The notes beneath the pieces are model-generated. The model was not told where the DNA came from, ran no database searches, and saw only the letters and a list, made by a program, of their open reading frames with translations. A program made the translations under genes and the position numbers. This document shows positions 5,948 through 48,620 of a stretch of DNA of 64,000 bases, in pieces; positions within the stretch are counted from its first letter, which is position 1; each line of letters opens with the position of its first letter. The stretch is from contig OX637393.1 of the NCBI GenBank assembly GCA_951799425.1, forward strand, positions 20,091,244 through 20,155,243, written 5' to 3'. Source of the DNA: Ilex aquifolium (taxonomy: Eukaryota; Streptophyta; Magnoliopsida; Aquifoliales; Aquifoliaceae).

Positions 5948-7699
5948 TGCTTGATTTGTTTCCCTTGCTTCCCACACGAACCCAATTATGTGTATGGCTT
6001 ATAATGAAAGGTGAGTGTCACTTTCACTCAAGCTCATACAAGATGCAAGGAAATTGTGTGTGGATGAGCAAAAACGTGTGTGAATATGCAAAAATGCTCC
6101 CCAAGCATAGGGAGTCTTACGTGTCGTGTTTTAACTCGGAAAAAGTTTCGAGGTCGTCTCCTCAAGCAAAGTCAAGACTAAGTGTTTTGAAAGGGAAAAA
6201 TGGAAAATATTGTGATTTGAAGTTTGGTGATCTGTGTTTTGAGAAATATGCAAGTAAAAAGAGGGTTGGCTAATCCATAGAGTTCATTCCAAATGGGTAA
6301 GCCAAATCAATTCATTCCATTTAACCAATGGTGCCTAGGTGTTTGATTGATTCGTAGGAAGCGAAAGATAAATGTAGTTGCTTGGACAAGAGCATACCCC
6401 GTGACAAGTCTATGGTGCATCAAAAGCCTACAACCGCATTCATCCACACTCAAACTAGTCAAACCCAACACTTTACACTATGAGGAAGAATGAAAGAAAG
6501 TTGATTTCACATACCCAAGATGAAATCCCTCTTGGATTTGCCAACTAAAGGTTTTGCTACTTATAATAAAGGCAAGACAAACATGAAAGAGAAAAACATG
6601 GTAATGAAATCAAACATGAACTTGTATTAATATAAGAAAAAGTTTAAATTACAAAAGAAATAGCATTCATACACAAAATGTAAAGCTTAAAGAGAAAATA
6701 CCCAAATACAAGTAATAGAACTAGTAAACCCTAGCTAAACTCAGTACAACTTGAAATAAACGAGATTAATGTGCTAGAAAGAAATATTACATGTATATTG
6801 AAGCTTACAAGAATGAAAATGGTGAAGGAAAATAAAAAACTCTAGCTTTCTCTCTCTAGAACTACCTTCTTCTTCCTTGGAGCTTCTCCCTCTAAAAGTT
6901 GAAAATTATCTCCCAAAAGACAAGTGTAAAAAATTTTGTCCATCCCCTTCTCCCTGCTATTGAGTGTGCTGAGATAGATTTTTTTGGGAAGAGGTTATCT
7001 AAAAAGGCTTCCAAAGTCAATCCAAAGCATGCCCCCTTCCTTTTTCAACCACTCTCTCTCCTATCATCTTATCATTACCCTTTCCACTCTTGCATGCAAA
7101 TAGACAAAATGTAGAGGTTATGAGGCTATGGTGGTGTGCTGAAATGGTCAAAACATTGTTCAAATATAAAGAAGTGGGCCCTTGTAGCAAATGGAGTCGT
7201 GGAGAAATTAATCTGGGATTTTTGGGCTTTGGGTATCAGTACCAAGTGATGAGGTACCCGTAACTCTATGGCAGTAGGATCAGGTACCGGTACCAAGTGA
7301 TGAGGGTACCGGTACCGACTTCAGTCTTTAATTTTTAAAAAATTTGAGGTATAGTACCAGTTGCCGGTACCTCAATTCTAGTAAGGTCAGATACCGGTAC
7401 CTCAATTTTAGTAAGCTCAGGTACCGATACCTAAGGATTAGGGTAGCAGTACCTCCCTTGCATTTTTTGACTCTTTTGTATTTCAAAGTCCTGAGCAATT
7501 TTTCTTGAATTCCTTTGTTGCCCATTGTCCCCGATCACGTTGCAAAGTGATTAACACCTATATTTACAATTTAATCACCTGCAATCAATACATTTCTCCA
7601 TTAATCTCCAATTTAGGCTAACTCTCAATAATACATTACAAAAACAAGTTAAAATGAATGTAATAAGGGTGTTAAATATGCAATATTCCGCACTCATTA
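5948..7699 (-). mobile_element. 3' LTR of Athila-C (minus sense)
   Basis: The 1752-bp LTR starts TGCTTGATTTG at 5948 and ends CACTCATTA at 7699, directly followed by the PPT of its element. The outer TG of the sense strand has mutated to TA. It contains the block CTCCCCAAGC...GAGGTCGTCTCCTCA near 6090-6175, typical of the Athila-type LTRs here. A GGTACCGGTACC cluster lies at 7228-7445. The partner 5' LTR is outside the window. The left target duplication would be TTTGG (5943-5947), unverified. Confidence 0.75.
7228..7445. repeat. GGTACCGGTACC palindrome cluster in the Athila-C LTR
   Basis: About eight perfect or degenerate units of GGTACCGGTACC are present, including GGTACCGGTACC near 7275, GGGTACCGGTACC near 7304, and variants to 7440. 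The same motif recurs in the internal region of this element at 48560-48620. Confidence 0.85.
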
Positions 7700-7778
7700 C
7701 ACCCCCCAACTTGAGTTTGTCTAGTCCCTAGCAAATCTTATTCAAAAGATAAAAATAAAGCTATAATGACACTATGTT
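7700..7778 (-). mobile_element. Polypurine tract and adjoining internal end of Athila-C
   Basis: CACCCCCCAACTT at 7700-7712 is the minus-strand polypurine tract AAGTTGGGGGGTG abutting the 3' LTR. It is followed by the conserved stretch with CTAGTCCCTAGCAAA. The internal region is cut at 7778 by Athila-A and resumes at 46932. ATGTT at 7774-7778 is the probable target duplication of Athila-A. Confidence 0.75.
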
Positions 7779-8139
7779 TGATGTTTTCCCCTTGTATTCC
7801 CTAATCTCCGGACATCATCCCTAAATGTGTGTATGGCTTATAGGGATAGCGGAGTGTCACTCTCCCTTGGAATGATGCAAGAAATGGGGAAACAGATTAA
7901 TGGTGGGTGAATGATATGTGTGTGTGTGAGAACAAAAGTGCTACCCAAGCGCAGGGAGACTTTCGAGTGTCGTGTTTTACTTGAAAATCTTATTCCAAGG
8001 TCATCTCCTCAGGGAAGGAGGTGAATCGTGTTGAAAGTGATTTTGGTGAAAAAGGGAAAAGTGTAAAAATCTTTTGTTGTTTGAGTTTGGGTTGAGGTTG
8101 TATCTTGATGAAATTGAAATGGAACAAGTGTTGGGTAAT
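7779..8139 (-). mobile_element. 3' LTR of Athila-A, segment 1
   Basis: Starts TGATGTTTTCCCC and matches 45140-45510 of the 5' LTR closely. It contains the TATTCCAAGGTCATCTCC block at about 7991. It breaks at the conserved GTGTTGGCTAATCC block, where element N inserted; GTAAT at 8135-8139 is a mutated copy of the CTAAT target. Confidence 0.85.
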
Positions 8140-10005
8140 TGATTGCTTGGAAATGCGGTGTTGTATCCTCGTAACATCACCCTCACCCTCAATGTGTGTA
8201 TGTGGCTTATAGTGATGGGGGAGTGTCACTCTCCCTCCGGATGATGCAAGAAGATAGGAAACAACAACAAAATGGATGTAAATGTGGAATGAACAAAATA
8301 TGTGGAATGAAATGCGGGTGTGAACAAAAGCGCTCCCCAATCACAAGGAGTCTTTCGTTGTCGGTGTTTTACTTGGAAGAGTATTCCAAGGTCGTCTCCT
8401 CAGGGAAGGAAAGGGAGTTTTGTGAAAATGATTTTGCAAAAGTGAAAAGAAAATGTAAAATCTTTTGTTTGAGTTTTGTGTTTGGTTTGTAAATGAAAAT
8501 GCAAATAAAGCAAGTGTTGGCTAATCCAAAGGGTTCATTCCAATGGGAATACCAAATCAACTCAAAGCCTTCCTCCGATTGAGCATGAATGAACGATTGA
8601 TTCGGGGGAAGCTAGGGACGAGATTGGTGAGTATCTAAGCATAAACCGTGACTAGGCCTACGGAATATCAAAGGCTCACCAACTCATCCACTCTCAATCC
8701 CGTCAAACCGAACCATTTGACTCTAAAGGGAGGAATGAAGAAGAGTTGAAAATGGTATTCCCAAGAGGAATTTTCCCTTGGATTAACCAACTTAAATCCT
8801 AGCTACTCATATTAACAATGCAAGACAAGCATAAATGAAATGGACATGGAAGGGAAATGGAGCATGGAACTTAACTTACAACAAGAAATCTAAAGCTATG
8901 AAGGAAAAATATGCAATACCCAATATAAAAGCTTGAAATGAAGAAAACTTAAATAACAATGGTGAAATGAAGAACATGAAAGTAAACTTGCAATAAACTT
9001 GAAAGGAATGACATTAAAGACAATAAATGAAGCTTACAAGGTTCTTACATTAAACTACAAGTGAAAGAATGGAAGAAAAATGCAAAAACGTCACTTTGAG
9101 CACTATTCATCATCTTCCCCATTGGAGCTTTCTATATCTAATCCTAAGCTTAGGTAGCCAACTTCTATACAAGCTTGTAATGTTCAATATATGCTGTGTG
9201 GAGACTTGCCAAAACGTGCATGAGGCTCCCCCTTAGCTGTGTGCAGACCTCTCATCAAGAGGGGGCTGAGTTGATGGGTCTTGACAGGCTAGCCTGCAAC
9301 CCCATATGGCAGCCCACTTCTCTCTCCTCTTCATTCAATGCCAAGCCTCGAAAGTCTTCCATTTGTGTAAGGGAGGCATGGTTGTAGGGATAAAATGTCA
9401 GGCTAGGCGTGGGAGAAGTGTAGGTGGGACCCCCAAGCAAGTGGAGCAAGAAAGAAGTCGTTCTGGGCACTTCTGGGCAATCAGCTACCGGTAACTCGGC
9501 GGTAGCAGCAACTCCAGAAGCAATCGGTTACCGGTAGTAATGCGGTATCTGGCTTCGCTGGACCAGTTTTGGTAGAATCGGCATAACTTTTGATCCAACC
9601 GTTGGATTGGGCTGAAATTTGGACACAATATAGAAGACATCCAGATCTACAACTTTCATGTTTTTAACTTTTTCTGATTCTGAGTAGAGCATGGCCAAAA
9701 TGGAGGAAAACGAAGGCAGTGCTTCCAAATGATGTGGCTGCTGATGCCCTTGTTCCCAAGCACCAATGCCTTATTGATTTCTTCACTTTTAAGCCTCCAA
9801 TTCTTCATGTATTGTGTCTATGCATTCACCACACATCCATCATAGTTGCAAGGTTATAAAATACATGATTTAAGGTATAAAAACATGCAACATCAAAATA
9901 TCAACATTATTGACAATTTTGGCTAACACTAAGTATTTAAATGCAAAAATTGAGTTATAATGCATGTAATGAGCCCTTCAAATATGCAATATTATGCGCT
10001 CATCA
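8140..10005 (-). repeat. 3' LTR of element N
   Basis: 1866 bp, TGATTGCTTGG to GCGCTCATCA in plus orientation. The sense strand starts TGATGAGCGC right after the polypurine tract. It carries CTACCGGTAG-type motifs at 9483-9555 and the TATTCCAAGGTCGTCTCC block at about 8381. Confidence 0.9.
9483..9555. repeat. TACCGGTA motif cluster in the N 3' LTR
   Basis: GCTACCGGTAA, GGCGGTAGC, GGTTACCGGTAG and GCGGTATC occur within 75 bp. The 5' LTR counterpart (14734-14806) retains GCTACCGGTAGC and GGCTACCGGTAG. The internal cluster at 11723-11888 uses the same motif. Confidence 0.85.
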
Positions 10006-10018
10006 CACCCCCCAACTT
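10006..10018 (-). promoter_or_regulatory. Terminal polypurine tract of element N
   Basis: Plus-strand CACCCCCCAACTT equals AAGTTGGGGGGTG on the sense strand, directly next to the 3' LTR start. This is the plus-strand DNA primer position. Confidence 0.85.
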
Positions 10019-12280
10019 AAACTTTGCTAGTCCCTAGCAAACAAAATGTAAAAGCAAGCAAACAAAAATAAACCTATACTAATTCCGCAATTGCATTTAG
10101 CACATGCAACAAGCCTTTAAACCCCTAGGTGATCCCTAGTGGACGAGTTTTGTCTCGTGAAGGTTTCCAGTGAAGGTACCTACAAACTTCTTGCTAACAT
10201 CCAATATTTAAAGTATATTCCCCTATCTTAACTAGCGATGGGATTTCAATAAAAAAACTATGTTCAAAACATCCTAACTAAAAACACATGCAACACATTA
10301 TAGCTTTAAATGCTATTCTAGAGTATTCACCTATACATTTCCTTTCAAAACTCGTGTGTGTGTGAACTGAACATGTAATTTAAGCATTTACACAACGGAA
10401 TTCACATTCACGTGGCTATCTAAATTAAGCTTTGATGCCAAAAACTCACCAAGGGTTTCTCTCAAAAATGAATAACTCAATGATTATCCTAGCATGCACT
10501 CCATGTGTATATGTGAGATAGAATCTTATTCACAAACCAAAATGCTCACATATAATCAAAAAATGAAGCACATGTATACAAATGAAACAACCTTGGCATA
10601 ATCTCATGAAAGGAATGCTAGGGCATTAGATAGTAAAATTAACTTCTCTTTTTCTTTAAAAGTATGCATCCCCCATGCTTCTCTAGATCTTTTAGGACTT
10701 TCATGGGTTATAATGGGGCCTTGGGGTGATGTTGTGGTAAGGGAAACGAAGGATATAGGATAACAAAGAGGGTTGTTCCGAGTGAGAGACATTAATCTTA
10801 GAAAAACACTTCCCTTTTATGGGATTTTGATTTTCACACCATCACCACATCCTTTGTTTCTTTTCTTTCTTTTCCTTTACATTTTTCCCTTTTCTTTTTC
10901 TCTTTCTTTTCTTCTTCTCACCCCTTTTCTTCCTTTTCTTGGATTATCAATTTTTTTTTTCTTTTCATTGAACTCTATGCGTTCCAACATCATTCACCCC
11001 TTTTTGCTTGAGTTTCCACACCATACTTCCTTCTTTTGCAATCACTCATTTTTGTTTTAGGAACAACCAAGGTAAGGTAGGTATTTCTTATTTTCTTTGG
11101 CTTGGTTCAATGTGTGGCATAGAAATGAATTCAATTAAGGCTCAATCATGGCACTAGGGATAAATTTCACAAGAAAAAGGCTTAGGCTCAAAGCATTCAA
11201 AAATGGCCTAAGATCATCTCTAGATAAGCATATGGGAGCATTGTACAATCAAGACAAAGTCAATCAACTACCCAAATGCACCTAACCGAAACAAGCATAA
11301 TGAGACTATTGAACAAATTTGAAAATTAAGAATTGTTCCTTGAGTAAATGTAAGTTCCCTCCAAACAAGGATTGGCATTAAAGCTCACATGGGTTCTTAC
11401 TCATCTCCACTATTCATGTCAAGCACTCAAATGTGAACTTAATCCGTAAATTGTCCAAATTACACATTCAAGGTGCACAATGGTTGAGTTTGAAAGAAAA
11501 CACATATGTGATACTCAAACATAGGATAAACTTCTATAATGTGCTCATGTATTCAAAGTTAAAAAATGAAGATCAAGCAATCACACATCCCACAACAATT
11601 AGGATAGGGGAATATAGTTCAATATTGGATATTTTTGGTGTTAGGGACAAATGGGAGGATCAATGGTGGGATCCCCAAAATTGTAGGGCTTGAGTTGCAG
11701 AAATGGGCAAGTTTCAGCACTGACTACCGGTAGGTCGGGTGTTACTACCGGTAGTCATGACTCCAGTAGCCATCGACTACCGGTAGAACTGCGGTAGCAA
11801 CTGGTCCAGTGGCCAGCGACTACCGGTAGTCATGCGGTAGGTGACGGACCAGTAGCCAATAACTACCGGTAGGCTACCAGTAGTTATTTCCTTGTTTTGC
11901 AAAATTTTTGGTTCCTCCATCTTTTAATCAAAATCAACACTCCACCTCATTTCCAACAACTCAAGCATCATGATAAACACCATTTGAACCCTATTTTACC
12001 AAAAATTGTTCAAAAATTTCAAAATTTTCACATTTCCCATTATTCTATAAAAAGTGGTGGAACATGTAAATGGTGCACCTCACCCCCCAACTTAAACTAT
12101 GCATTGTCCTCAATGCACAAGAAATCATGCAATGAGAAAAATGGGAGTAAGTGGAAAATAAAATACACCCTTTTTATTGCATCTAATCTACCAAAAACTT
12201 GGATCACACATATATACATGAAAATAAAAACAAAGAAGGCTACTTACTATGTACATTAAAACAAACAAATAGGGCTCTTG
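10019..12280 (-). other. Noncoding internal region of element N
   Basis: No credible ORF. It is clearly alignable to noncoding internal regions of the autonomous copies. Near 10120 it has CTAGGTGATCCCTAG and GTTTCCAGTGAAGG, as does Athila-C near 48938. The passage around 10600-11060 (GTTGTTCCGAGTGAGAGAC, then a T/C-rich stretch) matches 20940-21038 and 22784-23120 of Athila-A. A central G-rich tract (GTTGGGGGGTGAGG on the minus strand) lies at about 12074-12090. Flanks of the palindrome cluster at 11723-11888 resemble LTR sequence (GCTTGAGTTGCAG). Confidence 0.75.
11723..11888. repeat. CTACCGGTAG palindrome cluster inside element N
   Basis: Five perfect CTACCGGTAG copies and several half-type copies (GCGGTAG, CCAGTAG) occur in 165 bp. 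The motif matches the one in this element's LTRs. The left flank (GTGGGATCCCC, GCTTGAGTTGCAG) resembles sequence next to LTR clusters (for example 16134-16165), which suggests it was copied from an LTR. Confidence 0.85.
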
Positions 12281-13259
12281 TCAATCCGGCTTCAATTCGG
12301 ATATGACCTTACGCCCATTAATTTTTTTGATTTTAAAATTTTTTTGTTGTATAAATGCCCTTCTTAAACCATCTATCCAACAATATAAAGGAAAAGGAGT
12401 CAAAAATCTCAACCAAACCAAGATATATGCAATACAAAAGGTGGAGTATTCAATTTTTCTTTAAGAGTCTCAACACTTAACTCCATTGCAATGCCCTCCC
12501 CAAGTTGAGAAATGTGAATCTCAACACCACTCATAGATGGCAAAATGTCCTTGGGCTCATTAGCCTCATGCAAGATAATAACTTCATCAAATGTTTCACA
12601 ATCTATAGTGGTGGGAGATTCAACATCCCTATGCATTTCATTGGGGGGGGGTCATCCTCAATACAATGACTATGCTCAAGGTGTTGTTCTGCATGCATAA
12701 CAATTGTAGCATTAGTCAATGCATTAAGTTGTTGGGCAATGCATTCCATTTGGGCATTGCATTCCATTTGGGATTGCATAAACTCATAAAAAGTATTTTC
12801 CAATGCTTGTTCGGTTGAGTCCTCATATGTTGGATAATGGGGAGATTCATTTGGTGGTGTGAGATCGGATGACCAATCATGAGGTTCATTCTCCCAACCA
12901 TAACTCGAATAACTCGGTGTAACATAATGGTTAGGGTAAAAAATTTCGGAGGCCAAATTTGAATTTGAACCTTCGCATTCAAAGTGTTGAACCGGATAAT
13001 TTATTGGGCATTCACTAGTGAGGTGTCCATTTTCACCACAAATTTCGCAAACGTTTCCAAAATAAGGGGCATTTATAGGGCACTCACTAGTGATGTGTCC
13101 ATATTCACCACAAATCTTGCAAACGTTTTCAAAATAAGAGGTCATTCTTGGGCACTCACTAGTAATATGCCCATACTCATCACAAATCTTACACACATTT
13201 TGCAAATTTTGGGCATTATATACATTTCCATAATAATTAGAAAACATTACAAAACACAA
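12281..13259 (-). pseudogene. Mini-Gag with three tandem zinc knuckles (element N)
   Basis: The minus-strand ORF starts at 13259 and runs open to about 12640. Residues about 22-85 hold three CX2CX4HX4C zinc knuckles (CKICDEYGHITSEC, CKICGEYGHITSEC, CEICGENGHLTSEC) repeated every 24 residues (exactly 72 bp). An acidic, Pro/Tyr-rich part with a FYEFMQSQ motif follows. The frame shifts at a run of nine C (plus-strand G at 12643-12651) into a part with ANEPKD and EIHIS-LG-G motifs. After another shift it ends in a hydrophobic then basic tail terminating in KPD at 12281. No capsid or enzyme domain is present. It probably binds RNA as a nucleocapsid-like protein. A homologue lies in element G (28430-29066 and 40248-40429). 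It may be a decayed copy of an intact gene. Confidence 0.7.
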
Positions 13260-13387: not shown

Positions 13388-13390
13388 AAA

Positions 13391-15256
13391 TGATTGCTTG
13401 GAAATGCGGTGTTGTATCCTCGTAACATCACCCTCACCCTCAATGTGTGTATGTGGCTTATAGTGATGGGGGAGTGTCACTCTCCCTCCGGATGATGCAA
13501 GAAGATAGGAAACAACAACAAAATGGATGTAAATGTGGAATGAACAAAATATGTGGAATGAAATGCGGGTGTGAACAAAAGCGCTCCCCAATCGCAAGGA
13601 GTCTTTCGTTGTCGGTGTTTTACTTGGAAGAGTATTCCAAGGTCGTCTCCTCAGGGAAGGAAAGAGAGTTTTGTGAAAGTGATTTTGCAAAAGTGAAAAG
13701 AAAATGTAAAATCTTTTGTTTGAGTTTTGTGTTTGGTTTGTAAATGAAAATGCAAATAAAGCAAGTGTTGGCTAATCCAAAGGGTTCATTCCAATGGGAA
13801 TACCAAATCAACTCAAAGTCTTCCTCCGATTGAGCATGAATGAACGATTGATTCGGGGGAAGCTAGGGACGAGATTGGTGAGTATCTAAGCATAAACCAT
13901 GACTAGGCCTACGGAATATCAAAGGCTCACCAACTCATCCACTCTCAACCCCGTCAAACCGAACCATTTGACTCTAAAGGGCGGAATGAAGAAGAGTTGA
14001 AAATGGTATTCCCAAGAGGAATTTTCCCTTGGATTAACCAACTTAAATCCTAGCTACTCATATTAACAATGCAAGACAAGCATAAAGGAAATGGACATGG
14101 AAGGGAAATGGAGCATGGAACTTAACTTACAACAAGAAATCTAAAGCTATGAAGGAAAAATATGCAATACCCAATATAAAAGCTTGAAATGAAGAAAACT
14201 TAAATAACAATGGTGAAATGAAGAACATGAAAGTAAACTTGCAATAAACTTGAAAGGAATGACATTAAAGACAATAAATGAAGCTTACAAGGTTCTTACA
14301 TTAAACTACAAGTGAAAGAGTGGAAGAAAAATGCAAAAACGTCACTTTGAGCACTATTCATCATCTTCCCCCTTGGAGCTTTCTATATCTAATCCTAAGC
14401 TTAGGTAGCCAACTTCTATACAAGCTTGTAATGTTCAATATATGCTGTGTGGAGACTTGCCAAAACGTGCATGAGGCTCCCCCTTAGCTGTGTGCAGACC
14501 TCTCATCAAGAGGGGGCTGAGTTGATGGGTCTTGATAGGCTAGCCTGCAACCCCATATGGCAGCCCACTTCTCTCTCCTCTTCATTCAATGCCAAGCCTC
14601 CAAAGTTTTCCATTTGTGTAAGGGAGGCATGGTTGTAGGGATAAAATGTCAGGCTAGGCGTGGGAGAAGTGTAGGTGGGACCCCCAAGCAAGTGGAGCAA
14701 GAAAGAAGTCGTTCTAGGCACTTCTGGGCAATCAGCTACCGGTAGCTCGGCGGTAGCAGCAACTCCAGAAGCAATCGGCTACCGGTAGTAATGCGGTATC
14801 TGGCTTCGCTGGACCAGTTTTGGTAGAATCGGCATAACTTGTGATTCAACCGTTGGATTGGGCTGAAATTTGGACACAATATAGAAGACATCCAGATCTA
14901 CAACTTTCATGTTTTTAACTTTTTCTGATTCTGAGTAGATCATGGCCAAAATGGAGGAAACCGAAGGCAGTGCTTCCAAATGATGTGGCTGCTGATGCCC
15001 TTGTTCCCAAGCACCAATGCCTTATTGATTTCTTCACTTTTAAGCCTCCAATTCTTCATGTATTGTGTCTACGCCTTCACCACATATCCATCATAGTTGC
15101 AAGGTTATAAAATACATGATTTAAGGTATAAAAACATGCAACATCAAAATATCAACATTATTGACAATTTTGGCTAACACTAAGTATTTAAATGCAAAAG
15201 TTGAGTTATAATGCATGTAATGAGCCCTTCAAATATGCAATATTATGCGCTCATCA
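13391..15256 (-). repeat. 5' LTR of element N
   Basis: 1866 bp, the same length as the 3' LTR, with TG...CA ends. Differences from the 3' copy are scattered substitutions only. The TACCGGTA motif cluster is at 14734-14806. Confidence 0.9.
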
Positions 15257-16326
15257 CTAATCCGAAGGGGTCATTCCAATGGGAATGCCAACTCAACTCG
15301 AAACCTTCTTCCAATGGTGTCTAGATGTTCGATTGATTCGTAGGAAGTGCGAAACCAAAATGGGGGAGAGGATTCAAGCATACACCATGACAAGTCTACG
15401 GTGTATCAAGAACTCACAACCACGTCCACACTCAACCTAGTCAAACAGAGTCATCGTACACTACGAGGAGGAATGAAAATGGGTTGAAATGGCATACCCA
15501 AGAGTAGTTCTCCCTTTGATTAGCCAACTTATAGTCTAGTTACTCATATTTAATGCAAGACCATAAATGAAATGAAGAGACGTTGCAAAGAAATGAAGAT
15601 TGGAACTTAGTTTAATGCAAAGAAACTTAAACTAGGAATAAAAACATTCAATACCCATTTTTAAACTTGAAATGAAGAAAACTACCTACAACAATGGTGA
15701 AAACCAAAATGGAGAACTAAACTTGCAATGTGCTTGTAATAAATGACATTCAAGACATTAAATGAAGTTTACATAAGTCTTACAGGAACTACAAGTGAAA
15801 TGGATGGAAGAGCATGTAAAAATCCAAGCTTTCTCTCTCTAACTATGTCTTCTACCTAGAGCTCCTCTCTCTACAATGTAATACAAACTGAATAATGGTA
15901 ATCAATGATACATTTTCGTCCATAGAGAGCTCTGTAGGTGTGTGGCAGGCCTAACACCAAAAGGGGGCTGATTGGATGCATTTGGTAGGCTAGGATAGGC
16001 CTAGCCTGTGTCTCCCTTGCATTACGTCTTCTTTCTCCTCCACATTAATGTCAATGCCTCCAAAGTCCAAGCTAAGGTGAGGGGAGGCCTATAGATGTGT
16101 AAGGGATGTCAGGGGAAAATTTGGAGAAGTGTAGGTGGGACCCCCAAATAGCAGAGCTTGAGTTGCAGGCTGTCTGGGCATTCTGGGCAAAACCTTCCGG
16201 AAGGTTTGTGCAGGAACAGTTAAAATGGAAAAACTGTAAGAAAAACCTTCTGAAAGGTTTAGCAAACCTTCCAGAATGTTCATTCCAGTAGACAAAACCT
16301 TCTGGAATGTTTTGGCAGTGAATAGG
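15257..16326 (-). mobile_element. 3' LTR of Athila-A, segment 2
   Basis: Resumes with CTAATCCGAAGG and matches 45509-46600 of the 5' LTR. It contains ACCTTCCGGAAGGT-type palindromes at 16190-16312. It is interrupted at ATAGG (16322-16326) by the next solo LTR. Confidence 0.85.
16190..16312. repeat. ACCTTCCGGAAGGT palindrome cluster in the Athila-A 3' LTR
   Basis: One perfect copy (16194) and degenerate copies are spaced 20-45 bp apart. A further copy follows at 18210-18232 after the nested solo LTR. The 5' LTR carries the matching cluster at 46437-46672. Confidence 0.85.
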
Positions 16327-18193
16327 TGATTGGTGAAAAACGGTGTTGTATTCCCTAACCTTTTAAGTACTATCCCCCAAAGTGTATGTGTGATGTATGT
16401 TCAAACGGGAAGAGAGGGTCACGCTCCCTTGGGATAGAGTCAAAAGGAAGGGCAAGAGGGAAGGAAAAAGGGATGGTGTAAATATGATGCGTGAATGCAC
16501 AAAAATGCTCCCCAATCGCAAGGAGACTTTCGTGGGTCGTGTTTTACTTGGTGGTATTCCAAGGTCGTCTCCTCAGGGAAGGAAAGTTCAAGTGTGTGAA
16601 GGTGATTTTGTCAAAAAGAGAAAGTGTAAAATCTTTTAGTTTGTTTTGGTGAGTGGAGTTTGTAAATGAAAATGCAAGAAAACAAGTGTTGGCTAATCAA
16701 AAGGGGTCATTCCAATGGGAATACCAAATCAACTCCAATCCTTCCTCCAATGGTGCATAGACGAACGATTGATTCGTGGGAAGCTAGGGATGAGATGGTG
16801 AGGATCCAAGCATAAACCGTGACTAGGCCTACGGAATATCAAAGACTCACAAACTCATCCACCCTCAACCCAGTCAAACTGAACCATCATACACCGAGAG
16901 GAGGAATGGAAAAGAGTTGAAGTAGCACACCCAAGAGGAATTTTCCCTTGGATTAGCCAACTTAAATCTAGCTACTCATAATAAAAGACAAGACAATAAT
17001 GTAAAATGAAAGACATTGTAGAGAGATGAAGATTTAAACTAAGTTAATGAAAGAAAACTTAACTACGAAGAGAAATATTCAATACCCATTTTAAAGCATG
17101 AAAATGAATAAAACTTGAACAACAATGGTGAAATCTAGAATATTCAACTAAACTTGCAAAGCACTTCAAGTAAATGACATTAAAAGTAATTAATGAAGCT
17201 TACAAGAGTATTCAAGAAGATTGCAAGTGAAAAGATGGAAGAAAATGCAAAAACATAAATTTCTTACACTATGGCACTATTCATTGTCTTCTTCATGGGA
17301 TTTTCTAAGCTTAGGTAGCCACCCTCAATACAATGTGTAAATTCTGAATATAATGGAGAGTTAGCCTTCAATTTTCGTGCATGGTGGCCCCCCCTAGCTG
17401 TGTGCAGGCCTCCCATCAATGGTAGGCTAAATGATGGCTCTTGACAGGCTAAGGAAGAGCTAGCCTGCAACTCACTGGCAGCCCCCTTCAATCCCCTCTT
17501 CATTTAATGTCAAGCCTTAAAAGTCTTCAAAATGTGTAAGAGAGGCATGGAGATGTGCAAGGAAATGTTGGGGGCAAGTGGGAGAATCATTGGTGGGACC
17601 CCCAAGCAAGTGGAGAAGAGTTTGCAGGTGTTCTGGGCTGTTCTGGGAGCGTACCGGTACTGTGTACCGGTACTCTAAACCTTCTGGAGTTCGAAGTACC
17701 GGTACGCAGTACCGGAACGGTATAGTACCAGTACTGTTTTCTGCTCCGGACTAATTTTCGTAGAATCGGCATAACTTTTGATCCAACCGTTGGATTGAGC
17801 TGAAATTTTGACACAATACAGAAAACATCAAGATCTACAACTTGCATGTTTTAAAAATTTTCAGATTCGAAGTGGATCATGGTCAAAATGGAGGAAAACC
17901 GAGGCTCTTCAACCCAGTGGTGTGGCTGCTGGCGCTTTTGTTCCCAAACACCAATACCTCCTTGATTTCTTCACTTTTAAGCCTCCAAATCTTCATGTAA
18001 TGTGTACATGCCCACACCACACATCCATCATAGTTGCAAGGTCCTAAAATACATGATTTAAGCTATAAAAACATGCAACATCGAGAATTCAACATTATTC
18101 ATAAAATCGGCTAACTCTAAGTACTTAGATGCAAAAGTTGAGTTAAAATGAATGTAATGAGGCCTTCAAATGTACAATATTTTGTGCTCATCA
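16327..18193 (-). mobile_element. Solo LTR, minus sense, TSD ATAGG
   Basis: The 1867-bp unit runs TGATTGGTG to GTGCTCATCA. Perfect ATAGG duplications lie at 16322-16326 and 18194-18198. It is related to the LTRs of element N. The TATTCCAAGGTCGTCTCC block lies near 16556, and GTACCGGTAC palindromes lie at 17650-17735. No internal sequence is present. Confidence 0.9.
17650..17735. repeat. GTACCGGTAC palindrome cluster in the solo LTR
   Basis: Four or five units (GTACCGGTACTG, GTACCGGTACTC, GTACCGGTACGC, degenerate ones) surround the spacer AAACCTTCTGGAGTTC. The reverse complement aligns with the array in the Tekay-B 3' LTR at 38270-38345. Confidence 0.8.
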
Positions 18194-18473
18194 ATAGGCA
18201 GACCAAGGCAAAACCTTCCAGAAGGTTTTCACCCAAACTGCATTTTTCTTGGTTTTTCATCCTCAAAGTCTTTCTTTAAGCTATACCCTCATCTTCATTG
18301 ACTTCAAACACTTCAATGGGGGCTTAACTTGAATCATTTACATCCTTTTACCTGCATTTACACAAAACTCCATCAAAGAGAAGATTAAATGCATTTCTCC
18401 GCAATTTCACGACAGAAGCAAGTATAAAAGGGCATATTAGCATATAATATATGTAATGTTTTTGTGCTAATCA
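18194..18473 (-). mobile_element. 3' LTR of Athila-A, segment 3
   Basis: Continues after the solo LTR and matches 46590-46920 of the 5' LTR up to the terminal GTGCTAATCA at 18473, next to the polypurine tract. Confidence 0.85.
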
Positions 18474-18789: not shown

Positions 18790-19842
18790 CCTCAGTCATC
18801 CTCCTCATCAAAAGCATCCTCGTCCTTAGTCTTGAACTCAGATTCATACTCCTCCTCCTCCTCCTCCTCCTCCACCTTGACAGTCATGGAGGGCACATGA
18901 GCAGTGGTCTAGGGTCCAATAGGCTGTGGCGGAGGTCCTCCGGGGATAGGCTCACACGGGAATGTGTGTTGGAAAAGTCGTGTCACCATGACCGACAGTC
19001 CATGCATGGTGGACTCCAGCGCGTCCATAGGCTTCGCCATAGATGGCCTTGTAGCAGATGGCTCTGGCCCCCGAGCCCTGGGTCTCTCTCCCCCAGTCCT
19101 AGTAGCCCTTTTGCTGCTACTGGAATTCCCCATGGCTTCAGTCTCTAGGGGGAGCAGTGTATCATAGGCGTAGTGCTTCACTTTAGCCAGGTCACAAAGA
19201 CGGGTGACAAGGCTGCCAAATGGGAGGTTCACCTTTGGCTTTGTAGCCTTGGCGAACTCCCGCATTTCCTCAAAAGTCCGTGAGAGTCCTACCCCCGTCC
19301 ACGTTGTGTGGGTAGACCAAGATAGTCGGGGGAGGCCTCTCGTATCTCATCACAGTGGCGATTGTGTCGGGGGTCACCTCAAATGTCTTTCCCCTCACAT
19401 TGGTCCTCAATCTACCCCCGTCCTCACCAAACACGGACAACTTCTGGTAAAATTCATGACACATCCCTAGGTTGTATCCCTTAACCTCCTCAAACCACAC
19501 ATTCAATCCACGAGCCTCGATCACTCTCACAACCTCATCCCTAGGTCCAAGAGAAGGCTTATCTATGTATCTCTCGCACGTGACACCTTTTTCCTCAATC
19601 CTTTGTCTCCAGGCGTCATGCTTAGCCTTGGTTCACCTCTCCTCTCTCTCTGGACCACTTGGGCCCTCTCCACTCCTCTTTTGGGAGCTAGAGCCCATAG
19701 GTGGAGGAGACTCGGGGCCCGTCCTTTTCGTGCGGGCCATGAGTATCAACAGTGCCCCTAAACCCATAATTGTCAAAAACCACACCAAGAAGCTCTCCAC
19801 ATGCTCAAACACCTCCATAGACATCACATTTCCACGAGCCAT
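18790..19842 (-). pseudogene. Athila-A env-like ORF (putative plant transposon protein type), broken
   Basis: The sense reading starts at 19842. A hydrophobic segment (residues about 14-34, VWFLTIMGLGALLILMA) is followed by a basic, Ser/Pro-rich linker. After an in-frame TGA (about 19635) the same frame continues with the conserved NVWFEEVKGYN and CHEFYQKL part. A frameshift near 19268 leads to REFAKATKPKVN and a Pro-rich region ending at a stop (18909). An acidic tail from a GGA repeat follows to about 18790. The arrangement and its place between IN and the 3' LTR fit the third ORF of Athila elements, often called env-like; envelope function is not shown. A second copy is at 47031-48383. Confidence 0.7.
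18851..18874. repeat. (CCT)n / (GGA)n trinucleotide repeat
   Basis: Eight CCT units on the plus strand. On the sense strand they encode the poly-Glu tail of the env-like frame. Confidence 0.85.
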
Positions 19843-19906
19843 AGTAAAAGAGTTGAAGGGTTTGCAAAAGGATCAAAATAGTCTTGGGGAATTTAGGAAA
19901 AAGTGA

Positions 19907-21038: not shown

Positions 21039-21043
21039 ACATC

Positions 21044-22778: not shown

Positions 22779-22783
22779 ACATC

Positions 22784-29440: not shown

Positions 29441-29494
29441 CAAAACCAGACTGTTTATTTTAAAGTCGCGAATTTCGGCCTCTCTCTCTCTCCC

Positions 29495-31331: not shown

Positions 31332-31507
31332 CTAGGCTTTAGGTCTTACATGGGAGCTGTAGGTTATGGATTACCACTAGAGATGTAGGTTTAGGGTGAA
31401 GGAAATTGTTAAGTTAAATTTTGTATATGCCTTGTGCTTAAATCAAGACATCCTACATATCACTTTAGTTTATAGCTTGCACATCAAGGGAACTAAATTA
31501 TGGATTG

Positions 31508-37353: not shown

Positions 37354-37893
37354 GTTAGAAACCGGCGAGAGTAGTTTGTTGGGATCGGACCTTGTTAGAG
37401 AAACTACAGAAAAGATTCAACTCATCCGAGAGAGGCTACGGACGGCGCAAAGTAGACAGAAGAGCTATGCGGACCGCAGACGAAGACCCTTAGAACTCAA
37501 GGTGGGAGACTACGTATACCTTAAGGTGTCACCCAAGAAGGGCGTGTTTCGATTCGGTAAAAAGGGGAATTTAGCGCCAAGATATACCGGACCGTTTGAG
37601 ATAATCAAAGTGGTAGGCAAGGCGGCATATCAACTTCGACTACCAGCCCAGCTACCCGGAGTACATGACGTGTTCCACGTGTCGATGTTGAGAAAGTGTC
37701 AATCGGATGCCACGCCGGTCGTAGACTTGGAAGATATTGAAATTCAAGAGGGAGCAACCTATGAAGAATAACCGTTGAAGATTCTCGATGCCAAAGAGAA
37801 GGTGCTCCGTAACAAAGTCATCCGACTAGTGAAGGTTTTGTGGCAACACCATGGAGTGGAAGAAGTATCCACATTTGTTCGCTACTTGAGGTA
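37354..37893 (+). pseudogene. Tekay-B integrase C-terminal part and chromodomain remnant
   Basis: Resumes with ETGESSLLGSDLVRETTEK, then [39 protein letters not shown] and [10 protein letters not shown] stop (TAA at about 37769) precedes the chromodomain-like ILDAKEKVLRNK and VKVLWQHHGVEE. The conserved ATWE end seen in Tekay-T is replaced by an unrelated short tail. The remaining bases to the polypurine tract (37917) are noncoding. Confidence 0.85.
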
Positions 37894-37916
37894 AGTTTCG
37901 AGGACGAAACTTTCTT

Positions 37917-37930
37917 TAAGGGGGGTGGAT
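37917..37930 (+). promoter_or_regulatory. Polypurine tract of Tekay-B
   Basis: AAGGGGGGTGGAT directly before the 3' LTR. Confidence 0.85.
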
Positions 37931-40242
37931 TGTAATACCCCGCATTTTCTTTTATATATGCATATAGATATATAGATATAGCAAATAATGGTTGTAAAGA
38001 TGTGGATAGGGGTATTGAAGTGTGTTTGAACTTTGTAAATTTGAAAAGTAAAGATTTAAAATGTTAATGACAATCATAGTTGAAATTTAGTTTTAGTGAG
38101 TGAAAATATAAAATGTTAGGTCATATAACTTGTATTAGATAGGTTTGGTGTATAAATATGTGTTGGAGAGGTTTGTGATGGATTTGGTTAGTTTTGGAAT
38201 GGATTGGAAATGGAAAACAAAAGAAATAGGCAAAACTGGGTAAATGGTACCGGTACTGGGTACCGGTACTGTACCGTACCGGTACTGTGTACCGGTACCC
38301 CAATTCCAGAAGGTTTCTGGTACCGGTACTGGGTACCGGTACTGAGTACCGGTACTACCGAAACCAGACTGTTTATTTTAAAGTCGCGAATTTCGGCCTC
38401 TCTCTCTCTCCCTATAAATACTTAAGGCCGACTATTTGAGCCCCATTTCAGCCTTCTAAACCCTAGGCACCTTTAGAGAGAAAGAGAGGGAGAGAAGAAC
38501 ATCAAAGATAAGGAGAGATACACCATTTTAGAAGATTAAAACCCTAGATTTCTAAGATTTCACTTCTCTACTCATTCTCTTTTCTTCCATTCTTCACCCA
38601 CTCTCACCCAAATCTTTTGAAAACCCTAGGGAGAGGAGATTAAAAGGAAAAGAAAGGAAAGCAAGAAGGTCTTGAAGCTTGGGTATTTGGCTAAAACTCT
38701 TGAGCATTGAGGTAGGGGATTTCTTCCTATTCTCTTACATTGAGGCTAGGATTAAATTATATGTATTCTTTTGGTTCAAAATCATATATACTTGCTATTA
38801 TTTACTTGATTCTTGATTCTTGATCCTCTTGCATTTATTGTCATGTTTTAAACATTGTGGTAGTTGGGTAACCATTAAAGGTCCCTTTTTCATTCTCAAA
38901 CCCTAGTTTTAAGAAAAATGAATTTTTCCTCTTTACATTTTCTTTGTTCTCACCATCACAACCTTAGTGCTTGATATTGTATAACAAAATGATGTTTATG
39001 GTGATCTCTTGCTCTTTTTCTTCAATTTTGCTATGGTACAAATTGTGAAATTTGGGGATTTTGGGATTTCTGGTAAATTGAGAAAATGTTTGTAATGATA
39101 TCTCTTGTATGATTGTTGTGATGGACTTGAATTGCTTTCGAGCATTGCCGTAGAGTGTTAGAGGTTAGTCTATCCCGGTGGGGGTTTATGGTATGGTTAG
39201 AATGTGAGATATTTGTGGGAATTTTATCGCTTGCGTGGTTGTACGATACGAACATGGATTACTATGGACCGGGTATCATGTAGTGGGTATACGTCTTTAT
39301 ATGCCACGCGGGTATGAACTTTTCCTACCACATGGAGTGGGTAGACGCCTTTGTACGCCGTGTGGGTATAAACTTTTCATATCGCTAATGATCACGGGTT
39401 AGTAACGTGGGTTGTATCGGGCACACAGTGTGGGTCATCGTGCATTGTACCATAAATTGTTTTGACAAGAGTTTCGGGAAGTATGAGATTCTTCGAGAAC
39501 TTGTTGAAAACGGTTCATGGTAGAATGAATTACCAATGGTATATGGTGTTTATTTATCCATTTCGATTACTATTGCTACTTAAACTTGAGATCTATTTAA
39601 AATGTCCTGCTTTTCCTTCAAAATGTTATATATGCTATTTGTGAAAATGAGACCAACCGTTTTATATGCTTTCCTAAACCTTGTTTGAGTTTGGGAAGAT
39701 TTTGCTACAGAGCTTCGTGCTCATCCCCTACAATTAACATTTTTCAGATTATGTTATAGAGGAGGAGCTTGGCGCTAATGAGCCGGGCCTTGGGGAAGCC
39801 TCATTAGAGGGGTACCTGGATCCCGAGTGGGACATTTAGAGATGCCCCTTTTATTTTTGTACTAGACTAGGAACCAATATGTACAAACATTGTAAAGTCT
39901 AGTTTCTTTTGAAATTCCGTTGCAATATATTCATGTAATTCTTTTGGGTTGTAATGGCCTTAGTTTGGCTTATTCTTTTGGGATGATCGTTGTGGATAGT
40001 ATATATGGTGAATGAAATATTTTGGATTTGATGGTTAGATAGACCCGGTGTGGTCAAGGTATTATAAATGTACAGGTTGTGAGTTTTGGGAGAGCTTCCC
40101 GTACGAAGGAGACTCTGCCCGAATTTTGTTAAATTAAGAATGTTTCTTATTTGATGGATATATATATATATATTTAGTTGCTCTCATGACAGGAATGATT
40201 TCATAATGTAATGCCGTCCAGAGTGGTATTATGGGCGTTACA
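37931..40242 (+). repeat. 3' LTR of Tekay-B
   Basis: 2312 bp, TGTAATACC to GCGTTACA, 63 bp longer than the 5' copy. The extra length is mainly in the palindrome array at 38246-38362, plus a 10-bp duplication (GATTCTTGATTCTTGATCC region near 38811). Confidence 0.92.
38246..38362. repeat. Expanded GGTACCGGTAC array in U3 of the Tekay-B 3' LTR
   Basis: About seven GTACCGGTAC units occur, with an interior spacer CCCCAATTCCAGAAGGTTTC that is absent from the 5' LTR. It resembles the reverse complement of 17650-17735. Confidence 0.88.
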
Positions 40243-40247
40243 AAATC

Positions 40248-45131: not shown

Positions 45132-45139
45132 AAAATTCT

Positions 45140-46920
45140 TGATGTTTTCCCGTTGTATTCCCTAATCTCCGCACATCATCCCTAAATGTGTGTACGGCTT
45201 ATACGGATAGGAGAGTGTCACTCTCCCTTGGAATGATGCAAGAAATGGGGAAACGGATTAATGGTGGGTGAATGATATGTGTGCGTGTGTGTGTGTGTGT
45301 GAACAAAAGTGCTCCCCAAGTGCAAGGAGACTTTTGAGTGTCGTGTTTTACTTGAAAATCGTATTCCAATGGCGTCTCCTCAGGGAAGGAGGTGAATCGT
45401 GTTGAAATTGATTTTGGTGAAAAGGGGAAAAGTGTAAAAATCTTTTGTTGTTTGAGTTTGGGTTGAGGTTGTATCTTAATGAAATTGAAATGGAACAAGT
45501 GTTGGCTAATCCGAAGGGGTCATTCCAATGGGAATGACAACTCAACTCGAGACCTTCCTCCAATGGTGCCTAGATGTTCGATTGTTTCGTAGGAAGCGCA
45601 GGACCAAAATGGGAGTGAGGATTCAGGTATACCCCGTGACAAGTCTATGGTGTATCAAGAACTCACAACCACGTCCACACTCAACCTAGTCAAATCGAGT
45701 CATCGTACACTACGAGGAGGAATGAAAATGAGTTGAAATGGCATACCCAAGAAGAGTTCTCCCTTGGATTAGCCAACTTGTAGTCTAGCTACTCATATTT
45801 AATGCAAGACCATAAATGAAATGAAGAGACGTTGCAAAGAAATGAAGATTGGAACATAGTTTAATGCAAAGAAACTTAAACTAGGAATAAAAACATTCAA
45901 TACCCATTTTAAAACTTGAAATGAAGAAAACTACCTAAAACAATGGTGAAAACCAAAATGGAGAACTAAACTTGCAATGTGCTTGTAATAAATGACATTG
46001 AAGACATTAAATGAAGTTTACATAAGTCTTACAGGAACTACAAGTGAAATGGATGGAAGAACATGTAAAAATCCAATATTTCTCTCACTAACTATGTCTT
46101 CTACTTAGAACTCCTCTCTCTACAATGTAATACAAACTGAATAATGGTAATCAATGATACATTTTCGTCCATAGAGAGCCCCATAGGTGTGTGGCAGGCC
46201 TAACACCAAAAGGGAGCTGATTGGATGCATTTGGCAGGCTAGGACAGGCCTAGCCTGCATCTCCCCTGCATTGTCTCTTCTCTCTCATCCACATTAATGT
46301 CAATGCCTCCAAAATCCAAGCTAAGGTGAGAGGAGGCCTATAGATGTGTAAGGGATGTTAGCGGACAAGTTGGAGAAGTGTAGGTGGGACTCCCAAATGG
46401 CAAAGCTTGAATTGCATGCTATCTGGGCAATCTGGGCAAAACCTTCTAGAAGGTCGAAGCAAACCTTCCGGAAGGTTTGTGCAGGAATAGTTAAAATGGC
46501 AAACCAGTAAGCAAAACCTTCCGGAAGGTTTAGCAAACCTTTTGGAAGGTTCATCCAGTAGACAAAACTTTCCAGAAGGTTTTGGCAGTGAATAGGTAGA
46601 CCAAGGCAAAACCTTCTGGAAGATTTTTGGCAAAACCCTCCGGAAGGTTTTTAGCCAAACCTTCCAAAAGGTTTTCGCACAAACTGCATTTTTCTTGGTT
46701 TTTTCACCCTCCAAGCCTTCCTTTAAGCTATCCCCTCATCTTCATTGACATCAAACACTTCAATGGGGGCTTAACTTGAATCATTTACATCCTTTTACCT
46801 GCATTTACACAGAACTCCATCAAAGAGAAGATTAAACGCATTTCTCCCCAATTTCACGACATAAGCAAGTATAAAAGGGCATATTAGCATATAATATATG
46901 TAATGTTTTTGTGCTAATCA
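45140..46920 (-). repeat. 5' LTR of Athila-A
   Basis: 1781 bp, TGATGTTTTCCC to GTGCTAATCA. It matches the 3' LTR pieces at 7779-8139, 15257-16326 and 18194-18473. A TG microsatellite lies at 45278-45302. The palindrome cluster is at 46437-46672. Confidence 0.88.
46437..46672. repeat. ACCTTCCGGAAGGT cluster in the Athila-A 5' LTR
   Basis: About nine units, two or three perfect and the others with one to three changes, are spaced 20-45 bp apart. The motif equals that of the internal cluster at 20122-20260. Confidence 0.85.
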
Positions 46921-47030
46921 CACCACCATCCATGTTAATCATTTCAGAGACTACTCCAACTAATTCCAACCTAGGACATCTAAAAATTGCTAGACAAAAG
47001 GCAACAAATGACAACTGGTCTCTCTCTCCT

Positions 47031-48383
47031 CTACTTCTCCCCATCATCATCATCATCGTCGTCATCATCTCCCTTATCATCACCATCATCCTCCTCCTCA
47101 TCTTCTCCAGAATCTGCAAAATCAAGCACAACAATCGAGAGGGCTGGAGCAGGAGGATGGACAGAAGTGCTAGCCCTAGGAGTTTGTGGTGGGATATCTA
47201 ATACGACAGTTGGTGGTGGTGGCACCTCAAGGATAGGCTCTCCCGGGAAGGTCTGCTCAAAAACTCTCTTCATCATCAAAGTCAGCAGCTGCAGAGTTCC
47301 CCCACACTCATTCAATCTCCCCCCGATTCCAGTCAACCACTTGGGATCAGTCATTCAAGGGGTAGACGTGGATGTAGATGGCCTAAACGTAGATGGCCCA
47401 ACCTTCTCCTCATAGTGCCTGGATCCCTGAGTCATAGCCTTCCTTTTCTTGATACTTTGTTTGCCTATTGGGCCAAACTCATATGGGGACAACACGTCAC
47501 TAGGGGAGACTTTGATCTTGCTCCTTAAACAAATCTTGTTGACCAAGTGGGCACAGGGCATGTTCACCCTAGGCTTTGTGGCCTGGGCATAATCCCTCAT
47601 CACCTCCCGAATCATCAGTGCGATGTCCATCCGAGATCCAGCCATGAACTCATAGAGTAGGGCCATCTTTTCTACCACAGGCTTCTTCTACGATCCCCAT
47701 GGTAGGACGTTGTAATGGAGAATCTTGTGCATAACTCCATATGCATGCTTGAGCCCCCTGACTTGGATTTTGCCATTGAATTCTGCAAGGTTTTTGTACA
47801 TCAAGTTTGCATACTAATGGAGTTGCTTCCTCTCTTCATCGTCATGAGGGTAGTCGATTCTATCGGGAGGAGGCCTTTGATAATGCAACACCTCAGCTAT
47901 GACTGTCAGGTGACATCAATTTTTTCCCCTGCACCGTGATTCTCAAAAGCTCCAGCTCGACATCCACAACCATCAATTTCTGATAAAACTCTTGGCAAAA
48001 AGGGAGCACATTCCCCTTCACCTCTTGGAAACAAAACTGTAAACCATGGTTCTCAATAGTTTTTAAAACATCATAATCTAGCCCCAAAGTAGGTCTATCC
48101 ACCCGACGCTCACACGTCACGTTTCCCACCCCAATGGTCTCCGAATGGGGGTCACTTTTCCTTTTTTTTTTCTCTGTTCCCCACCACTTGGGCTTGGTTC
48201 ATCCGCCTTTCTTCGGGTCCCCATGCCCATTTGTTTCATCGGGGCAGGACTTGCTTGTTTCATGTGTGCCATCAAAGCCAATAACACACCAAAAACCAAA
48301 AATGGGAAAACCCACTCCCAAATCAAAGCAAACATATCAAAAGGTGGAGAAGAGTGCTTACCATTACTTGCCATGATCACCAA
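47031..48383 (-). pseudogene. Athila-C env-like ORF, broken
   Basis: Sense order: 48383-48117 with a hydrophobic segment (residues about 20-41, IWEWVFPFLVFGVLLALMA) and a basic linker; another frame (48129-47893) with ENHGLQFCFQEVKGN and CQEFYQKL; then 47678-47355 (REVMRDYAQATKPRVNMP, KKRKAM) and, after one stop, 47354-47031 ending in an Asp/Glu-rich tail. It is co-linear with the Athila-A copy at 18790-19842. A membrane-associated role is conceivable from the single hydrophobic segment; real function is unknown. Confidence 0.7.
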
Positions 48384-48554
48384 ATTCTAACCTTGAGTGG
48401 AGTAGTTGAGGAATTAGAAGGATGCCCAAAGGTTTTTAGATGACTTGGAAGGTTTCTATCAAGAAGAGAGTGTTTGAAACGAGAAGAAATGGGAATTATG
48501 AAATGAAAACCAAATTTTCCCCTTTTAAAACCCTCGATTTTCACAAATTAGGGC

Positions 48555-48620
48555 ACAAGGTTCCAGTACCTCCTCAAGCAGGTACCGGTACCTCTTTGAC
48601 TTGGTACCGGTACCTGCCCT
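48555..48620. repeat. GGTACCGGTACC cluster upstream of the Athila-C env-like ORF
   Basis: A degenerate GTTCCAGTACC is followed by CAGGTACCGGTACCTC and TTGGTACCGGTACCTG. The flank AAAACCCTCG is the same as next to the Athila-A cluster (20102-20111), so the sites are equivalent. The motif matches the Athila-C LTR (7228-7445). Confidence 0.85.

Follow-up and report, generated by a model that had tools for sequence, protein, structure and literature searches.

The window analysed here, a stretch of 64,000 nucleotides of Ilex aquifolium (C3:20091244-20155243), consists of nested long terminal repeat (LTR) retrotransposons, and this report concerns the clusters of short palindromes that its Athila-type elements carry at two places, in the LTR and inside the element. 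Our analysis of the window, together with genome-wide surveys of the 800 Mb source genome, supports that LTR and internal motifs agree by family and differ between families, beyond the three elements of the window. We propose, with a probability of about 0.64, that the env-bearing Athila-type elements of this plant carry two copies of one promoter module, which would be co-read by one factor.

The original prediction had assigned two CpG-centred palindrome clusters to each of three elements, N, A and C, with motifs that differ between elements and agree within each. A palindrome scan found all of these clusters in place, and the window held 68 CG-centred palindromes of at least 10 bp, compared with a mean of 7.4 and a maximum of 12 in 30 dinucleotide shuffles. 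The three elements lie on the minus strand; N sits inside the 3′ LTR of A, and A in turn is inserted near the 3′ end of C. The view that the two C clusters belong to one element split by A fits both the 5-bp repeat ATGTT, which flanks A at both ends, and the LTR and internal homologies. The features concerned are as follows.

7228..7445, minus strand: palindrome cluster of the C 3′ LTR, with GGTACCGGTACC at 7283 and 7305 (palindrome scan)
7609-7765, similar to 9914-10078: LTR/internal start of C, placed by homology
8137..10006, minus strand: N 3′ LTR, 98.7% identical to 13388-15257; cluster at 9483-9555, with TACCGGTA at 9486 and 9529
11723..11888, minus strand: N internal cluster, with CTACCGGTAG five times at 11724-11872
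12603..13259, minus strand: zinc-knuckle (gag nucleocapsid-like) open reading frame (ORF) of N, which sets the strand of N (PF00098, E 4.8e-12)
13388..15257, minus strand: N 5′ LTR (LTR alignment); CTACCGGTAG cluster at 14734-14806, with TACCGGTA at 14737 and 14780
15257..16327, minus strand: middle piece of the A 3′ LTR (other pieces 7778-8139 and 18208-18480), 91-94% identical to 45139-46927; cluster at 16190-16312, and 18213
18912..19872, minus strand: degenerate envelope-like (env-like) ORF fragments of A, PF20167-like (E 6.5e-5 and 4.8e-5, below the gathering score, pieces searched apart)
20122..20260, minus strand: A internal cluster; the env-like ATG (19842) follows 280 bp downstream
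45139..46927, minus strand: A 5′ LTR; cluster at 46437-46672
47214..48165, minus strand: degenerate region of C resembling the env-like (PF20167-like) fragments of A (tblastn with the A fragments, 36-55% identity)
48555..48620, minus strand: C internal cluster, with GGTACCGGTACC at 48581 and 48603; a degenerate env-like ORF starts about 180 bp downstream, its ATG at 48374

Exact ACCTTCCRGAAGGT was found at 16192 and 18213 in the A LTR that the solo LTR S1 interrupts, at 46463 and 46516 in the other A LTR and inside the element at 20132, 20184 and 20236, and degenerate copies surround these exact sites. A also carries an RVT_1 ORF fragment. In N, TGGCGCCGTTGCCGGGGA follows the 5′ LTR, which we take to be a tRNA-Asp match and the Athila-typical primer site. 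PF20167 and this primer site together suggest the label Athila for the env-bearing elements. At 12999-13206, the zinc-knuckle ORF of N has about three tandem units of a 72-bp repeat.

The window clusters are not due to chance. Genome-wide, GGTACCGGTACC occurred 5,913 times versus 76 times for its reversed control, and the same held for ACCTTCCGGAAGGTTTTG (4,245 + 3,813 versus 0 + 0), GCGTCCGGACG (5,383 + 5,219 versus 17 + 15), GCGTTCGAAC (8,933 + 8,988 versus 530 + 490) and CAGCGCCTAGGCGCC (112 + 93 versus 0 + 0). N and C have the 8-mer core TACCGGTA in common, so the window holds two core classes and not three; that motifs differ between elements is borne out between families generally, and would have been weak from the three elements alone. 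TTCCGGAA, TACCGGTA and GTCCGGAC contain CCGG, while two further classes, F (TTCGAA) and R (CCTAGG), are without it. The R in the A motif looks like decay of the central CpG: the central dinucleotides of A-family sites at 29 loci were CG 93 times, TG 19, CA 13, TA 8 and other 6. Nor is CpG-centring a rule, as the class R palindrome GCGCCTAGGCGC is centred on TA. We take TTCCGGAA to resemble the heat-shock element TTCnnGAA; identity with that element was dropped as a candidate, since the ACCGGT, GTCCGGAC, TTCGAA and CCTAGG classes do not fit it.

Agreement between the two places was scored within families. For the N family, 30 loci were fetched of 40 matches that were 97-100% identical in the query; both clusters were readable in 24 copies, and one side was blank in 6. 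By 10-mer, 7 of the 24 copies agreed (CTACCGGTAG in both places), 16 combined internal GTACCGGTAC with CTACCGGTAG in the LTR, and 1 showed the reverse (Fisher test on 10-mer types, p ~0.33). The 8-mer TACCGGTA, in contrast, was common to all 24 copies in both places, indicating that the flank bases assort freely and the core does not. Copies L005-L034 of this family, 97-100% identical in the non-coding block, have two internal cluster types and at least two LTR types (the LTR of L007 is only 77% like that of N), which marks recombinant copies. For the A family, 30 loci were fetched of 40 scored, the window's own included. In eighteen of them both clusters could be read and the 3′ LTR was the element's own. 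All 18 carried the TTCCGGAA class internally and in the LTR alike, although in L035 and L037 one of the two sides shows it only through one-mismatch sites. Three loci had one side blank and nine were not assessable, namely L044, L054 and seven that show another LTR downstream (L036, L047, L048, L050, L057, L060 and L064). The apparent discordance in this family was set aside, given that seven of the nine such loci run into a stretch of some other LTR.

Families far from those of the window were reached through a genome search with PF20167, in which the best 150 of 6,661 candidates were scored; seven far loci were chosen via the position of the PF20167 ORF, blind to motif. A palindrome cluster was found upstream of the PF20167 ORF in 6 of the 7. 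The internal motifs were GCGCCTAGGCGC (L065/L069, and L073), CGTCCGGACG in seven copies (L066), CAGCGCTG (L075) and CCGTCCGGACGG (L077 and L079). Five far LTRs were reached, each as the 3′ copy alone and recognised by a junction resembling a polypurine tract (PPT), and the family motif was present in 5 of 5, four times exactly and once only as a looser dyad: GCGCCTAGGCGC in L070, CGTCCGGACG four times in L068 (whose position was guided by class D spacing on C1), the dyad GCGC-N4-GCGC only in L074, CAGCGCTG in L076 and CCGTCCGGACGG in L078. The stretch L080 fell in other sequence, and no 3′ LTR was reached there.

We then compared the true pairing of internal and LTR clusters with all other pairings across eight elements (A, C, N and the five far ones). 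With exact palindromes the true pairing was equalled by 1 of 40,320 arrangements, that is, it was itself the best, with fewer than eight independent elements behind this figure because C and N have a motif in common and some of the families are related. The concordance against other pairings that the original prediction implied is thereby upheld. Its claim of agreement within each element stands for the blind far loci, the A family and the permutation; it fails for the N-family 10-mer, where 17 of 24 copies disagree, and returns at the 8-mer. By local alignment, the internal region fitted its own LTR best in 7 of 8 elements, R2 being the exception. A class F element was kept outside the permutation, having been chosen since its triplet was already visible, and was included in the TATA and spacer counts below. 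On C1, among the matches listed, LTR-internal-LTR triplets with fixed spacing numbered at least three for class D (internal cluster 3.4-3.6 kb from one LTR and 6.7-7.0 kb from the other) and at least five for class F (3.5-3.9 and 8.5-8.7 kb), and two further three-cluster groups have other gaps.

The clusters also keep to fixed positions. In A, N, D, R, R2, R3 and D2, about 200-530 bp separate the PPT/LTR junction from the LTR cluster, and the family motif is repeated upstream of the env-like gene in A, C, D, F, R, R3 and D2, and in R2 as a dyad only. Towards the 3′ LTR, the internal clusters of A and C face a degenerate ORF, PF20167-like in A and similar in C; the internal cluster of N lies on the other side of the conserved non-coding block. 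The PF20167 match is strong in L065 (E 3.5e-48) and L066 (2.4e-31), and weak and below the cut-off in the window's A (about 5e-5). Among the 99 class R words in the matches listed on C1-C9, 27 precede a scored PF20167 domain at a distance of 737-1,104 bp, in all 27 cases on the strand of the domain and at 17 of the 70 scored domains, compared with about 0.02 expected for contigs assumed to be 45 Mb long. For 68 of these 99 words, there is no scored PF20167 domain within 6 kb. In the D internal region, seven palindromes are followed by CTATAAATAG and then an ATG, in that of F six palindromes by GGCTATAAAAGCC and then a candidate ATG, and the D and F LTRs likewise show palindromes and then a TATA box. 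TATAWA was found within 120 bp downstream of 5 of 12 clusters from six elements (null 0.123 per cluster, binomial p 0.011), all four clusters of D and F among them. TATA words also stand behind the D2 internal and LTR, R2 LTR and R3 LTR clusters, outside the formal TATAWA count.

In the mechanism that we propose, the LTR module in the unique 3′ region (U3) would drive the genomic RNA, and the internal module, ahead of the 3′ env-like PF20167 ORF, would drive that ORF. Each module would consist of clustered, family-specific palindromes to which a DNA-binding protein binds as a homodimer, and in young families a TATA box comes after them. One factor would read both modules, so that LTR and internal sites would keep or switch their motif together, and the concordance would be held by selection, helped by occasional cassette copying. 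Promoter activity, the dimeric protein and its single identity at both sites are what we infer from the sites. Palindromy, clustering, an inverted cassette, the TATA boxes of young families and the spacing of sites near multiples of 10.5 bp in two classes, TTCCGGAA and CTACCGGTAG (R 0.74 and 0.91), favour double-stranded DNA sites of a dimeric protein acting as putative promoter modules. Helical phasing as a general rule was rejected and is not our main argument, being strong in TTCCGGAA and CTACCGGTAG, weak in GTACCGGTAC and absent in class F.

The same palindromes might instead act in RNA, an option that the original prediction had named, as kissing loops for dimerisation or packaging or by circularising the genomic RNA through pairing of U3 with the internal region. 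Every site is indeed self-complementary and both clusters lie within the genomic RNA, but the D and F TATA boxes behind both clusters and the inverted cassette speak against it, and we consider it very improbable. We give as little credence to the clusters being targets of host silencing, that is, CpG-dense repeats attracting methylation. The central CpG of the A family does decay towards TG, CA and TA like methylated CpG, but a target would be expected to be lost, not kept twice and replaced by new words, and class R is centred on TA.

Further clusters occur in the window outside N, A and C, in elements of which the LTRs S1-S3, nested further, are on the minus strand and the chromovirus-type B and E on the plus strand.

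2459..2494, strand not assigned: palindromes with the GTCCGGAC core (class D/D2)
4950..5420, minus strand: CGTTCGAACG cluster (class F), then the TATA-like word CATAAATATC, perhaps an LTR fragment
16327..18207, minus strand: solo LTR S1 within the A LTR, ATAGG on both sides; GTACCGGTAC three times at 17651-17705
21040..22784, minus strand: solo LTR S2 within A; CGTACCGGTACG twice at 22277-22320
29067..40244, plus strand: chromovirus-type element B, gag-pol; LTR clusters at 29379-29438 and 38246-38356, the latter with TATAAATA 57 bp behind it
35383..37257 (right edge approximate), minus strand: LTR S3 in the integrase region of B; TTCCGGAA-class cluster at 36709-37178
52553..62798, plus strand: chromovirus-type element E, LTRs 99.9% identical, one 1,541-aa gag-pol ORF; LTR clusters at 54475-54949 and 62113-62587

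The LTR clusters of B and E have no internal partner: no CG-centred palindrome cluster was found in E between its two LTRs, nor in B between its own once the inserted S3 is set aside. Profile matches in E comprised reverse transcriptase, RNase H, integrase and Chromo (E 0.0045, below the gathering score); in B, parts of the integrase were matched and no chromodomain was listed in the scanned pieces. Pfam scans of the B and E gag-pol pieces returned no PF20167. Over 475 bp, the cluster in the E LTR and that in the Athila-type LTR S3 are 93% identical, in the same element sense, and no similarity between the two LTRs was listed outside the clusters (cut-off E 1e-10, 80 bp). We regard this likeness as an exchange of a putative regulatory block between the lineages. 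For the E LTR stretch, the best 40 of 4,731 candidates were all 99-100% identical over the full length, cluster included, which indicates that a young family carries this cluster. In the B LTR, CTATAAATA starts 57 bp after the cluster at 38246-38356, and the B LTR cluster is similar to the internal cluster of L016, a copy of the N family (83% over 86 bp).

Palindromes of both the TTCCGGAA and the TACCGGTA class, in LTRs of Athila-type elements and of chromoviruses, are repeatedly separated by a spacer word, TCCAGTAG/CTACTGGA, which occurs at 11762, 16284, 20171, 36840, 36946, 36978, 46554, 22295, 54671, 54703 and 54810, and is a possible second site. The window further holds an inverted repeat of about 1.35 kb (95%; 26893-28240 and 40886-42230), part of which has 76% likeness to what follows the TATA box in the class D LTR (L068), and the class D palindromes are absent from both of its window copies.

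How the two clusters stay alike was approached by aligning internal and LTR clusters of seven elements. Identical columns made up 136/146 at sites versus 204/265 in spacers (Fisher 2e-5), a contrast that is inflated because the alignments are anchored on sites, and whose spacer count omits D2 (36/36 identical) and R2 (no site match). Better preservation of sites than of spacers is as expected if both places share a recognition factor, as the original prediction had suggested. Its other suggestion, that copying keeps the clusters alike, also has a clear case: D2 has an identical 36-bp cassette of two palindromes internally (L077, 200-800 sense) and, inverted, in the LTR (L078, 660-1260 sense), and the copies share even a non-CpG variant site. 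The best internal-LTR match is inverted in C and D2, and tied in D.

Concordance might then be a mere by-product of copying, through tandem-repeat slippage combined with exchange between U3 and the internal repeat, by template switching or gene conversion, with no shared reader. The D2 cassette, the cluster common to Athila-type and chromovirus LTRs and, by eye, the likeness between the block behind the N internal cluster and the LTR block behind the N LTR cluster are in keeping with this. Outside D2, however, spacers have diverged beyond the sites (R3 excepted), the clusters stand at fixed places, in U3 and ahead of the ORF, and recombination alone leaves the palindromy and the TATA boxes behind both D and F modules unexplained, so we regard this account as unlikely. 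As far as the edge of its cluster, the R LTR is 82-84% identical to the LTRs of N, S1 and S2; from there on it has a different palindrome, and the R internal cluster carries the same new word as the R LTR. We read this pattern as motif turnover with matched replacement, probably by copying and selection.

As to who reads the sites, a variant of our explanation holds that ordinary host transcription factors, different per family, do so with no element-encoded reader. This is possible, at less than even odds. The same LTR sites are present in B and E, as well as in short elements of classes D and R with paired LTRs, and Sirevirus motifs were matched mainly to stress-factor sites (PMC2829016). 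On the other side, motif turnover at a homologous LTR site, mirrored in the R internal cluster, seems fast for fixed host factors, which need not by themselves make LTR and internal sites switch together. The short pairs, two of class D and seven of class R, showed no copies between their LTRs by exact pattern among the matches listed, and presumably lack env, judging by their length. The seven class R pairs, on C1 and C3-C7, are 5.36-5.48 kb apart and resemble short elements with clusters in the LTR only.

We know of no activity of the Athila PF20167 protein. A doubtful suggestion is that PF20167 is itself a self-specific DNA-binding activator or anti-silencer, with its own palindromes at the internal promoter that expresses it and in the LTR on which it acts, and that E-like chromoviruses and short ORF-less elements would be parasites that took up the cluster so as to exploit the Athila factor. 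It would be the plant equivalent of foamy virus Tas, with a turnover of motifs like that of VANC. Each family would then change protein specificity, LTR sites and internal sites together. PF20167 comes into question as the reader because its ORF is the gene behind the internal module, the Athila PF20167 protein of sunflower is predicted to be nuclear, one sunflower Athila clade shows a drop in LTR methylation, and foamy virus Tas offers a parallel layout. Against it, chromoviruses without a PF20167 match also carry the sites. A search of solved structures with the PF20167 protein of L066 gave 0 matches up to E 1, and so lends DNA binding no support from fold.

Several observations weigh against two co-read promoter modules. 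Helical spacing fails in GTACCGGTAC (R 0.32) and class F (R 0.14). At L067, one of the PF20167 loci, the 3 kb covered contain no cluster, and the five far 3′ LTRs rest on the PPT-like junction. With exact palindromes, the R2 internal set has no match to its own LTR and the D2 internal set fits the D LTR better than its own; R3 spacers (36/39) are preserved as well as its sites (13/16). The 27 clusters of GGTACCGGTACC among the matches listed on C1 form pairs, and no LTR-internal-LTR triplet with unequal gaps. N keeps its internal cluster, yet no sense ORF of at least 80 aa lies between it and the 3′ LTR. Finally, no TATAWA was found within 120 bp of the A, C and N clusters or the R internal cluster, nor after the E LTR cluster, where the first TATAAATA lies about 1.5 kb before the cluster.

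The layout bears on the role of the "envelope-like" ORFs in plant LTR retrotransposons. Two plant lineages with such ORFs, Sireviruses and Athila-type elements, have a family-specific palindrome in the LTR and again ahead of the ORF, which suggests that a separate promoter, regulated jointly with the LTR, serves the env-like ORF. If PF20167 binds the palindrome of its own family, "env" would become a regulator, and the families would supply naturally occurring DNA-binding specificities, each changing along with its sites. The clusters are perhaps the Athila counterpart of the Sirevirus motifs, and may be read by an activator that the element itself encodes, in the manner of foamy virus Tas or of the VANC systems of VANDALs, which are DNA transposons.

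The layout is already known for Sireviruses, and the Athila case is new within the literature searched: no report of it in Athila was found among the listed open-access papers of PMC, to which the search was confined. The original prediction had missed this precedent, published by Bousios et al. in 2010, in which the repeated motifs (RM) of Sireviruses are arranged in the same way and precede a TATA box (PMC2829016). There, a palindromic motif is clustered in the upstream part of the LTR and again before the env-like gene, as here, except for N with no ORF behind its internal cluster. ENV-less Sireviruses have motif copies in the LTR only (PMC2829016); B and E agree with this rule, and N breaks it. 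RM were called Sirevirus-specific and absent from the classic elements compared (PMC2829016). Sireviruses are Ty1/copia elements (PMC2829016), whereas here the carriers are Athila-type with a PF20167 ORF, one genome has several motif classes, chromoviruses also have LTR clusters, and the CGG-CCG core of the RM is absent from classes F and R.

Among other systems, Del chromovirus LTRs have variable CpG-rich blocks, proposed as an escape from silencing (PMC4029996); these CpG islands belong to monocot groups and not to eudicot Del elements, and palindromes go unmentioned in the accessible text. Sunflower Athila elements have a 3′ ORF, named aORF, with Transposase_32 (PF20167), for which the authors predict nuclear localisation; it belongs to the same Pfam family and is likewise a 3′ ORF, the available part of that source giving no cis motifs (PMC11728184). 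One sunflower Athila clade shows a drop of LTR methylation in all three contexts, for which VANC-like factors encoded by the element are considered possible by the authors; the portion of the text at hand has no motif or palindrome analysis ("palindrom" 0 times) (PMC12844716). In the VANDAL/VANC anti-silencing system of Hosaka et al. (2017), target motifs are often in tandem, vary considerably between relatives and are read by a protein that the transposable element encodes; VANC binding was shown experimentally (PMC5735166), whereas the sites here are palindromic, promoter-placed and known from sequence. Foamy viruses, which are animal retroviruses, have an LTR promoter and an internal one from which the regulatory genes are expressed, and Tas binds DNA upstream of both starts (PMC8670036); in the elements described here, it is the order of cluster, TATA box and ATG, seen in D and F, that recalls this arrangement.

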